Positions 2 through 2,200 of a DNA stretch of 6,354 nucleotides are shown piece by piece. The stretch covers positions 1 to 6,354 of the forward strand of contig JALUBW010000019.1 in assembly GCA_027044735.1 (NCBI GenBank), in the 5' to 3' direction. This stretch comes from Anaerolineales bacterium. Lineage in GTDB: Bacteria; Chloroflexota; Anaerolineae; Anaerolineales; DRMV01. Each line of letters begins with the position of its first letter. Position 1 is the stretch's first letter. Under the pieces are notes generated by a model. It saw only the letters and a list, made by a program, of their open reading frames with translations. It searched no databases and was not told the DNA's origin. A program made the translations under genes and the position numbers.

Positions 2-2200
2 TACATGGCCTATGGCTCAGGTGGCGGGATCAACAATCAAAGCGCACTGCCCGCCGGCATGTGGGACGGCAACAATGCAGGATTGGTAGGAGCACCGGGG
101 CAAAGCCTATCGCTCAGCCCTAACGGCATGGACGCCAACAGCGGCTCTTCATGGGAAGCCACCACCTCGGGAACCGCCCCCGGGCCCACCACCGTAGATA
201 CTGACCCGCAGACCTGCAACGGGCACGAGCGGGTAAGCAGCGCCGGAGGCAACAACACCACCCCTCCAACTCCAACGCCAACAGCGACGTTTACGCCGCC
301 CCCGACTCCAACGTTCACGCCCACGCCAACTCAGACCTTCACGCCGACGCCTACGCCGACGTTCACCCCCACACCTACGCCCACGTTCAGCCCCACACCG
401 ACTCAGACGTTCACCCCAACACCTACGCCGACGTTCACCCCGACACCTACGCCGACGCCCACGTTCACCCCAACGCCAACTCCGACGTTCACGCCGACAC
501 CTACGCTGACGTTCACCCCAACGCCGACTCCGACGTTCACGCCGACGCCTACGCCGACGTTCACCCCCACACCTACGCCCACGTTCACGCCTACACCTAC
601 GCCCACGTTCACGCCCACGCCGACTCCGACCTTCACGCCAACGCCTACGCCCACGTTCACCCCAACGCCGACTCCGACGTTCACGCCGACACCTACGCTG
701 ACGTTCACCCCGACACCTACGCCGACGCCCACGTTCACCCCAACGCCGACTCCGACGTTTACCCCAACCCCGACAGCGACGTTCACGCCGACGCCTACGC
801 CGACGTTCTCGCCGACGCCTACGCCGACTCCGACGCCGACATTCACGCCGACACCTACGCCCACGTTCACGCCCACGCCGACTCAGACATTCACGCCGAC
901 ACCTACGCCGACGTTCACCCCGACACCTACGCCGACGCCCACGTTCACCCCAACGCCAACTCCGACGTTCACGCCGACACCTACGCTGACGTTCACCCCA
1001 ACGCCGACTCCGACGTTCACGCCAACGCCTACGCCCACGTTCACCCCCACGCCAACGGCCACGTTCTCGCCAACGCCAACGCCTACGTTCACCCTTTTGC
1101 CACCTCCACCCACGAACACCCCCACACAAACGCCGACCAATACTCCAACACTCACTCCAACACTCACTCCAACGCTTACCCCTACTCCAACCGCCACCCC
1201 AACACCCACACCCACCCTTCCCTCTCATCTCTTTGACCCGCCGACAGGCTTCAAGAGCAGCACCACCGACCACTGGCCGGTGATCACATGGCGGCAGGTA
1301 TGGATCAACAATGGCAACGCGGCAGCCGTGGACGTTTGGGTTATAGACCCCTTAGCCGCAGACACCGCTTACATCCCCGGCAGCCTGAGATGCGAAGCCC
1401 GTGGCGCTTCATCCACCGACCTATGCCAATACACCCCCAGCCAGCGGCGCATTGAATGGCGCGGCACCATAGCCCCCGACCCCGGCGCCACTGATGAAAA
1501 CACAGCGACAAACGAAGTGGTGATCACCTTCCAGGTGCGGGTGCTGGGAACAGAAAAGCAAAGCGTGAGCAACCAAAGCAGCGCCCATTGGGACGAAAAC
1601 GGTGATAAGCACATTGACCGCTTAGACCCCAACGTCGCCAACGGCAAAGCCGTGCATGCCCGCGCCAAAGCGCGACGCCCCGTTTTGCCCAACTCGGGCT
1701 TTCCTCCGGCGCGGCAAAGCCGCCTCCCCCAAAAGCCAAAGGCGGTGCATTATGCAGATTTAGGCCAACTGTGGTTGGAAATTCCGCGGCTGGACGTACA
1801 AGCCCCCATCGTAGGCGTGCCCGCGCGCGGCGGCACTTGGCCGGTCACATGGCTGGGCAACCGCATCGGCTGGCTTGAAGGCACTGCCTTCCCAACTTGG
1901 CAGGGCAATAGTGTGCTCACCGCTCACGTTTACCTTTCCAACGGCTTGCCCGGCCCGTTCGTCAACCTCGCGGCCCTCCGTTGGGGCGACCAAATCGTGA
2001 TCCACGCTTGGGGCTGGCGTTTCGTCTACCAAGTGCTGAGCAATCAGGTAGTCAGGGCAAATGACACACGCGCGTTAGCCCACAAAACCGGCGACTGGCT
2101 AACCTTGGTAACCTGCCGAGGATACGACCCCCACACACAAACTTACCGCTGGCGGCAGGTAGTGCAGGCGGTGCGGGTTAATGCCACCCCCGAACACTAA
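2..2200 (+). CDS. Modular surface protein with lamin-tail remnant, Thr/Pro stalk, DUF11-like domain and C-terminal sortase (5' partial)
   Basis: The frame is open to the left edge and the first ATG (position 5) lies inside what looks like a domain, so the true start and signal peptide are probably upstream. Numbering from that ATG (731 residues): 1-80 resemble the end of a lamin-tail domain (ALPAGMWDGNN, SLSLSPNG, TSGTAPGP). Residues 85-404 are a Thr/Pro stalk. Residues 405-545 are DUF11-like, with Cys463 and Cys474 as a possible disulfide. Residues 561-565 read LPNSG. Residues 583-725 are a sortase domain: WLEIPRL at the start, His641 in TAHV, Cys704 in the TLxTC signature (TLVTCRGYD), and Arg717, 13 residues after the Cys as in Staphylococcus SrtA. 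Sortases are surface cysteine transpeptidases. No transmembrane segment is visible, so any anchoring must come from the missing N-terminus. The sortase call is strong, DUF11 is fairly good, and lamin-tail is tentative. The substrate is unknown. The gene converges on the three - strand genes. Confidence 0.88.
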   Translation, partial: YMAYGSGGGINNQSALPAGMWDGNNAGLVGAPGQSLSLSPNGMDANSGSSWEATTSGTAPGPTTVDTDPQTCNGHERVSSAGGNNTTPPTPTPTATFTPPPTPTFTPTPTQTFTPTPTPTFTPTPTPTFSPTPTQTFTPTPTPTFTPTPTPTPTFTPTPTPTFTPTPTLTFTPTPTPTFTPTPTPTFTPTPTPTFTPTPTPTFTPTPTPTFTPTPTPTFTPTPTPTFTPTPTLTFTPTPTPTPTFTPTPTPTFTPTPTATFTPTPTPTFSPTPTPTPTPTFTPTPTPTFTPTPTQTFTPTPTPTFTPTPTPTPTFTPTPTPTFTPTPTLTFTPTPTPTFTPTPTPTFTPTPTATFSPTPTPTFTLLPPPPTNTPTQTPTNTPTLTPTLTPTLTPTPTATPTPTPTLPSHLFDPPTGFKSSTTDHWPVITWRQVWINNGNAAAVDVWVIDPLAADTAYIPGSLRCEARGASSTDLCQYTPSQRRIEWRGTIAPDPGATDENTATNEVVITFQVRVLGTEKQSVSNQSSAHWDENGDKHIDRLDPNVANGKAVHARAKARRPVLPNSGFPPARQSRLPQKPKAVHYADLGQLWLEIPRLDVQAPIVGVPARGGTWPVTWLGNRIGWLEGTAFPTWQGNSVLTAHVYLSNGLPGPFVNLAALRWGDQIVIHAWGWRFVYQVLSNQVVRANDTRALAHKTGDWLTLVTCRGYDPHTQTYRWRQVVQAVRVNATPEH
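419..543 (+). repeat. Perfect 125-bp direct repeat, copy 1
   Basis: These 125 bases are identical to 899-1023, exactly 480 bp downstream, within the Thr/Pro stalk. The identity includes the synonymous codon choices and the uncommon TLTF unit (acg ctg acg). Outside the block the two regions still align in protein but differ at many third positions. A 41-base part (479-519) also recurs exactly at 671-711. This indicates duplication or gene conversion inside the array more recently than the original expansion. Confidence 0.93.
899..1023 (+). repeat. Perfect 125-bp direct repeat, copy 2
   Basis: Second copy of the block at 419-543, without a mismatch. It diverges at the 3' end where position 544 is g and position 1024 is a, and at the 5' end where position 418 is a and position 898 is g. 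Confidence 0.93.
1685..1699 (+). other. LPNSG sortase-recognition-like motif inside the sortase protein
   Basis: Residues 561-565 read Leu-Pro-Asn-Ser-Gly, followed by Phe-Pro-Pro-Ala-Arg. This fits LPxTG with the conservative change Thr to Ser. It lies in the linker between the DUF11-like domain and the sortase domain, which begins about 18 residues later. A usual sorting signal would continue with a hydrophobic segment and a positively charged end at the C-terminus. Neither is present, so this is not a standard cell-wall sorting signal. It may be a self-processing site, a conserved linker, or chance. Confidence 0.6.

Follow-up and report, generated by a model that had tools for sequence, protein, structure and literature searches.

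The sortases known so far are stand-alone membrane enzymes that have to locate the proteins they act on. Can such an enzyme be carried on the same chain as the signal that it cuts, and what would a protein built in this way do? The question is raised by a 6,354-nucleotide stretch from an Anaerolineales bacterium (GenBank assembly GCA_027044735.1, contig JALUBW010000019.1), referred to here as the window, which is an entire contig (G000:C19) from a 63%-complete genome bin. Its first gene encodes a long stalk, then an LPNSGF motif, then a sortase domain at the end of the chain. This architecture and its conservation among relatives are certain. From sequence comparisons and structure models we consider it on the whole probable that the protein would anchor itself, its own sortase binding the motif in cis, cutting between Thr or Ser and Gly, and transferring the stalk to a cell-wall amine.

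A sortase and its recognition motif in one chain

The gene has the following parts, where counts refer to the set of 123 proteins described in the next section.

2-2200, forward strand: gene for stalk, LPNSGF motif and sortase; 732 codons, 5' end open at the contig edge, stop codon at 2198-2200
262-1218, forward strand: Thr-Pro-rich repeats seen in the translation, ends approximate; putatively an extended stalk or wall-spanning segment
1229-1660, forward strand: weak DUF11-like domain (DUF11, E value 0.027; DUF7927, E value 0.022; both below cut-off)
1685-1708, forward strand: LPNSGFPP, sortase recognition motif of the type LPx[TS]GF[AP]P, by sequence conservation
1694-1696 and 1697-1699, forward strand: Ser564 and Gly565, with the predicted cut between them
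1709-1750, forward strand: short linker of nearly constant length, partly conserved in relatives (T-x-L-P-x-Q-P, then Y)
1751-2197, forward strand: C-terminal sortase domain (PF04203 at 1775-2179), directly followed by the end of the chain
1925-1927, forward strand: catalytic His641 (His in 123/123)
2114-2116, forward strand: catalytic Cys704 (Cys in 123/123)
2153-2155, forward strand: catalytic Arg717 (Arg in 120/123)

LPNSG occupies residues 561-565 (nucleotides 1685-1699) when numbered from the ATG at nucleotide 5. This ATG is the numbering origin and is uncertain as the true start codon because the reading frame runs in from beyond the 5' contig edge; the start of the protein, with any signal peptide, lies outside the window. 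On a recount from the same ATG, the positions that the initial annotation had given for the motif and the three catalytic residues were all correct, as was its remark that no tail follows the sortase: the chain stops directly past the domain.

The profile matches, predicted fold and active site all mark the domain as an ordinary sortase (PF04203/peptidase C60 family), with predicted transpeptidase activity. The window protein matches PF04203 at 66.6 bits (E value 2.3e-18, cut-off 26.6) and TIGR01076 at 45.7 bits (cut-off 39.35), and the sortase beta-barrel fold is present in the predicted structure. It is not a class C (pilus) sortase. The NCBIfam class C model scores 47.1 bits on the whole chain and 50.9 on the domain, far under its cut-off of 160; LPx[TS]GF stands in place of the DP(W/F/Y) lid; and the C-terminal membrane segment of class C is absent, with at most 12 residues after the core. 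Measured against a standard LPXTG sorting signal, the protein has the pentapeptide (LPNSG) and, where the hydrophobic segment and basic tail would follow, the sortase domain.

Conservation of the motif ahead of the sortase core

The first protein search used as query the tail, motif included, of C118, a second fused gene of the same bin; the best 120 of 263 relatives and the three copies from the bin make up the 123 proteins. Against the bias of a query that contains the motif, the search was repeated with the sortase core only (alignment A1, 12 rows), scanned over the named genomes. This gave 416 relatives, of which the best 79 loci were kept, with 84 core matches in them.

The initial annotation had asked for homologues to be aligned to see whether LPx[ST]G is conserved just before the sortase, and it is. 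Ahead of the core, at a spacing of 11-17 residues, xPx[TS]GF is found in 80 of the 84 core-only matches (62 LPxTGF, 3 LPxSGF, 15 other xPxTGF; 4 are without it). With the upstream 60 residues shuffled 200 times, the motif appeared on average in 0.14 of the 84 and never in more than 3, and elsewhere in the frames examined the same pattern has only 3 occurrences in 109,086 residues (upstream, LPxTG lacking the F has 7). The shuffles and this scarcity rule out a chance motif. An assembly or frame artefact is likewise ruled out, as the layout recurs in many genomes; among the examples are records whose titles do not mark them as metagenome bins (Ornatilinea apprima P3M-1, L184; Leptolinea sp. HRD-7, L179) and a protein named from Thermoflexus hugenholtzii (P0102).

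Within the motif, the pattern of fixed and free positions is that of a sortase substrate. The columns of the 123 proteins read L in 116, P in 123, x at 3.31 bits, T in 116 and S in 6 (T or S in 122/123), G in 123 and F in 122, beside a triad of His in 123, Cys in 123 and Arg in 120. In 83 rows of the core-only scan they read L in 65 and I in 8, P in 80, x at 3.18 bits, T in 77 and S in 3, G and F in all 83, A in 75 and P in 81. Conservation sets in sharply at the motif: the four preceding aligned columns have 3.5-3.8 bits, as against less than 0.3 for P, G, F and the P of GFAP, 0.48 for T and 1.25 for L. Alignments A2 and A3 were built from motif-bearing rows only; that P, G and F are invariant in them is in part a result of this choice and was not used as evidence.

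One alternative, which the initial annotation itself had offered, is that LPNSG is the mere start of a conserved linker and has no enzymatic role. The linker is indeed partly conserved too, and the GF[AP]P side is kept in copies where LPxT has been lost. This reading is nevertheless unlikely because the x of LPxTG is free while T/S and G are fixed, neither of which is needed by a linker or a lid; the composition, with L, P, T/S and G fixed, matches a sortase signal. Three copies have also lost LPxT and the catalytic Arg together, and structure models put the motif in the place of a lid (both below), so we give a passive linker almost no credence. Cleavage at Thr/Ser-Gly is the likely purpose of the motif, judging by its sequence pattern, because both sides of the scissile bond are fixed around a free x, and a substrate needs Thr and Gly whereas a lid does not.

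The exceptions are few. The four core matches without a motif are the second, partial frame at L170 and the copies L164, L165 and L175, which form one lineage in which LPxT has given way to an LVSGG-like sequence, GFAP is kept and the catalytic Arg is replaced by Trp. Their sister in the tree, L100, has ILDTGF, with the Pro lost, and an intact triad. These four are a single lineage decaying in stages, not three independent cases. At each of the four loci the decayed copy adjoins an intact one and the rest of the domain is kept; perhaps such copies retain it for binding only.

Motif and triad were scored in 239 different tails, which include close relatives and are not independent rows. Both are complete in 228. 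Another 5 have the motif with Arg off the exact column (one residue on in four; the fifth ends at a contig edge), 4 have neither by the strict rule (L164, L165, L175 and L015), and 2 lack the motif with the triad kept (L170, partial, and L100). L015, the same gene as L039, is broken: the copy is 203 residues long, its Arg is shifted on by one residue, and none of the upstream frames contains the motif. On a tree of 84 rows and 147 columns, whose deep forks are weak, 4 changes of motif label are required. The motifs IPQTGF (L051) and IPDTGY (L052) belong to two divergent copies in genome G251 that sit on long branches and score 72 and 78 bits on the family profile.

Outside this family, the sortases examined in other orders, like the separate sortases of the window's order, score no more than 107 bits on the family profile and lack LPxTG before the core. 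Giant frames of 1,078 to 4,463 residues in other orders end in a different sortase with no LPxTG before it (L042-L044 in G327, G240 and G107; L046-L047 in G127 and G310; L048-L049 in G277 and G163). Sortases thus stand at the ends of long proteins in more than one sequence group. Other motif-less sortases follow an N-terminal membrane segment (for example L045, L054, L056, L057 and L089-L093), and L041 and L058 are partial cores only. The separate sortases L089-L093 (~300-380 residues) share a stretch, VVLP[SGD]GH[TV]PP, between membrane segment and core.

Predicted position of the motif

To see whether the motif reaches the active site, as the initial annotation had suggested, we predicted two structures with AlphaFold2. 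Model 1 covers nucleotides 1649-2197 of the window (100 rows; mean predicted local distance difference test score, pLDDT, 93.2; predicted template modelling score, pTM, 0.89), and model 2 is of C118 (40 rows; mean pLDDT 92.6; pTM 0.88). Residues 11-20, which include the motif (13-18), have a mean pLDDT of 93 in both models though they form neither helix nor strand; the first ten residues average 53 and 61, and the linker after the motif in model 2 reaches only 83.

When the models are aligned to solved structures, the alignments start at the lid, from residue 6-12, for most class C sortases, only from about residue 30 for most class A sortases, and only from residue 30-32 for the lid mutant 3rbj. 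On the assumption that the alignments start without a gap, Leu13-Pro14 of the motif falls on lid residues D58-P59 of 2w1j, D49-P50 of 3tbe and D84-P85 of 4g1h in both models, and on D90-P91 of 4g1j with model 2 (lid numbering as in the accessible parts of PMC3166054 and PMC3493515). There are exceptions in both directions: class A 4tqx (root-mean-square deviation 11) aligns from residue 1 and 2kw8 from residue 9, class E 5cuw aligns from residue 12 with model 2, and the alignments to class C 3re9 and 4d7w begin only at 28-35; according to excerpts of PMC3493515, 3re9 is an open form (S. suis SrtC1).

According to the same excerpts, the lid of class C is a pseudo-substrate, its Pro overlapping that of a bound LPAT (PMC3493515). 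The natural reading of our models is that a true substrate sequence would occupy the groove of its own enzyme, in the place where class C enzymes keep a pseudo-substrate. Cis docking of the motif is thus supported by two models, and the prediction that it can reach the active site was not refuted.

The same placement can be read in another way, in which the motif is a lid that is never cut: as a pseudo-substrate it would keep the sortase closed until displaced by another LPxTGF protein, and the fused enzyme would act in trans on other substrates. In favour of this, the motif is at the position of a lid that is itself described as a pseudo-substrate (PMC3493515, in part). A lid, however, need not keep Thr/Ser and Gly while x is free, yet both are fixed, and no membrane segment follows the core to hold the enzyme where substrates emerge. 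We regard this alternative as unlikely, and the search for free substrates described below bears on it as well.

Stalks and copies

Two further sortase genes in the same bin are ordered like the window gene. C118 is complete at 628 residues, with a signal-peptide-like start (by eye), DUF11, Thr-Pro repeats, LPQTGFAPH and the sortase. C176 has 1,662 residues and an open 5' edge, with GEVED, SdrD_B and DUF11 domains, LPKTGFAPG and the sortase. Among motif-bearing frames with a closed 5' end, 35 of 43 have a signal-peptide-like N-terminal segment by a crude hydrophobicity rule. At the other end, all 80 motif-bearing matches of the core-only scan have at most 12 residues after the core (L053, outside that set, has 17). 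Where the source gave the relatives a name, it was sortase, LPXTG-site transpeptidase (sortase) family protein or hypothetical protein.

Precomputed Pfam annotations of the stalks differ widely among relatives; the accessions include what we take to be beta-helix, PMP-like, DUF11, subtilase, PD40 and Laminin-G domains, among others. SdrD_B, GEVED and DUF11 domains and Thr-Pro repeats are common in anchored surface proteins. This diversity is a better match to a general anchoring cassette than to a pilus polymer.

The initial annotation had thought of attachment or polymerisation, and the second half of that idea found no support. In this reading copies would act on one another in trans, one sortase cutting the motif of a neighbour and joining stalks into polymers or a cross-linked coat. 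The closest solved relatives by sequence do include class D and class C (pilus) sortases; genomes have several copies, with two fused genes adjacent or one small frame apart at five loci picked for closeness; and engineered sortase fusions oligomerise at high concentration (PMC9985607, in part). Against this, no common pilin or acceptor lysine is expected, because the stalks differ so widely. No recurring glycine was seen at the likely signal-peptide cut when the segments were read by eye without cleavage-site prediction, and the length of the linker suits cis docking. We rate polymerisation as quite improbable.

Free substrates

A census of LPxTGF codons (first position also Phe; IPxTGF-type variants lie outside the pattern) found 40 matches across three genomes, of which thirty were read as loci, five were searched in frames of at least 120 residues, three lie inside fused sortase genes by their coordinates, and two with a Phe-codon start were left unread. 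Beyond the fused genes, one canonical free substrate was found, L061 (G027:C1:624542, minus strand), in the same genome (G027) as fused copies. Its 194-residue frame has an N-terminal membrane segment, a Thr/Ala-rich part, and LPNTGF followed by a membrane segment and an Arg tail. L061 suggests that this type of motif is a sorting signal in the order, and L061 itself is likely a client of a separate sortase. Neither G251, with its six fused genes, nor the bin of the window showed a canonical free LPxTGF substrate. For an uncleaved lid awaiting other proteins, L061 is a possible target; one canonical free substrate in the three genomes, as against several fused copies per genome, speaks the other way. 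The LPXTG anchor model TIGR01167 had no match at an E value of 0.001 in any of 22 genomes chosen for a survey, a weak negative as L061 itself escaped the model.

A proposed mechanism of self-anchoring

If the protein anchors itself, the signal peptide would export the chain with the stalk first and the sortase last. On folding, the sortase would take LPx[TS]GF into its groove, where class C enzymes have their lid. Attack of the Cys on the Thr/Ser-Gly bond would leave the stalk as a thioester on its own enzyme, and the GF[AP]P end would move away. The thioester would then be resolved by an amine, for which lipid II or a stem peptide of peptidoglycan is the likeliest source, leaving the stalk on the wall and freeing a sortase of ~19 kDa. 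The acceptor is probably peptidoglycan: MraY, and hence lipid II, is present in 8/8 near-complete genomes tested. The fused enzyme would thereby replace the hydrophobic segment and basic tail that hold ordinary substrates at the membrane until a separate sortase arrives. In its fullest form, about which our judgement is evenly balanced, the proposal is of a self-anchoring module: an LPxTGF-sortase cassette of ~170 residues set on very different stalks, in which the lid of the enzyme would be its own substrate, and a single-use transpeptidase that would fire once in cis, join its passenger to the wall and then be shed.

Cis cleavage of this kind has a precedent in engineered target-LPGTG-linker-sortase chains, which cut and ligate themselves intramolecularly (PMC9985607, in part). 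The coupled loss of LPxT and of the catalytic Arg, which is Trp in L164, L165 and L175, also favours self-anchoring.

Several observations weigh against it. That coupled loss is one event, not three, and in L100 the motif is damaged with the triad intact, so motif and enzyme were not lost at one stroke. The register on the class C lid presumes a gap-free start of the alignment, and 4g1j with model 1 is off by one; the docked motif of the models may be a lid that stays uncut. The window's own bin, which is 63% complete, gave no MraY. A separate sortase (frame of 299-378 residues), which could act on the fused motifs, is present in 19 of the 22 surveyed genomes. In the same survey, G328 (97% complete) has the fused sortase only, G148 has a separate sortase only and no C118-tail match in the class-wide search, and G241 has no sortase of either type; the bin of the window has fused sortases only, at its 63% completeness.

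The thioester might instead be hydrolysed, the sortase releasing the stalk into the medium. Hydrolysis is a known side path in engineered fusions (PMC9985607, in part), and the lack of a membrane segment after the core would fit. A secreted protein, however, needs no such device for its release, and the SdrD_B, GEVED and DUF11 domains and Thr-Pro repeats are common in anchored surface proteins. We hold self-release to be very improbable.

Distribution in Anaerolineae

The window gene, treated at first as a single case, is a member of a large family with up to six fused copies per genome (G251, two of them divergent). The tail of C118 is matched at an E value of 0.001 in 288 of 396 genomes of the class, the weaker of the matches listed being mostly short frames of ~170-420 residues. 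Among the 38 other genomes of the order, 27 have strong matches (E value 1e-40 or better), and a truncated one is in G211. Outside the order, this level is reached in G186 and in G046 (a broken copy), with G105 next at 7e-40. Fused frames reach ~3,850 residues. Many environmental Anaerolineae encode large, predicted secreted proteins whose last ~170 residues are an LPxTG-type signal and a sortase.

Comparison with known systems

Gram-negative autotransporters likewise combine a passenger and the machinery that places it at the surface in one gene; the likeness is in logic only, with no shared sequence or chemistry. LPXTG surface proteins resemble the fused proteins in their signal-peptide-like start, long stalk, SdrD_B/DUF11-type domains and LPxTG-type motif, and differ in ending with a hydrophobic segment and basic tail where the fused proteins have a sortase domain of ~150 residues. 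Class C sortases, as described in the accessible part of PMC3493515, have a DPX pseudo-substrate as lid where the family described here has a full LPx[TS]GF, and are separate enzymes with a C-terminal membrane segment, unlike the fused copies. The closest likeness in layout is to engineered autocyclases, with the order target, LPxTG, linker and sortase, for which self-cutting and ligation in cis are reported (PMC9985607, in part). Those fusions are man-made with SrtA, whereas the present family is natural and conserved and has another sortase. Sortase-tag expressed protein ligation is a further engineered fusion with the same order of parts.

We found no description of a natural sortase fused to its own LPxTG in the open-licence literature, an absence that is not proof of novelty. 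The accessible parts of PMC8286594, PMC12617251 and PMC7203096 do not describe the fusion, and an excerpt of PMC1586193 reports for Chloroflexus, as of 2006, one protein with a sortase-like region and no evidence of activity.

If self-anchoring is true, the module would be an equivalent of the autotransporter in Gram-positive style, and the fusion that protein engineers have built by hand would have a natural form. An enzyme and its cut site in one conserved chain would change the view of surface display in a large, mostly uncultured group, and many giant surface proteins would gain a predicted mode of attachment. It would also suggest a relation of the class C lid to substrates, and would offer protein engineering a ready-made natural self-ligating tag.

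Neighbouring genes

The remainder of the window encodes the following.

3127-5562, reverse strand: lytic murein transglycosylase with TPR repeats, lipoprotein-like (SLT domain, E value 4.6e-25)

The transglycosylase is a sign of peptidoglycan in the organism; a functional link to the sortase gene is not proven. Two further lipoprotein-like genes, at 2418-3071 and 5603-6352 (both reverse strand), have no Pfam match above cut-off. The second, which is cut off by the contig edge, has a stretch rich in Thr and Pro close to its start.

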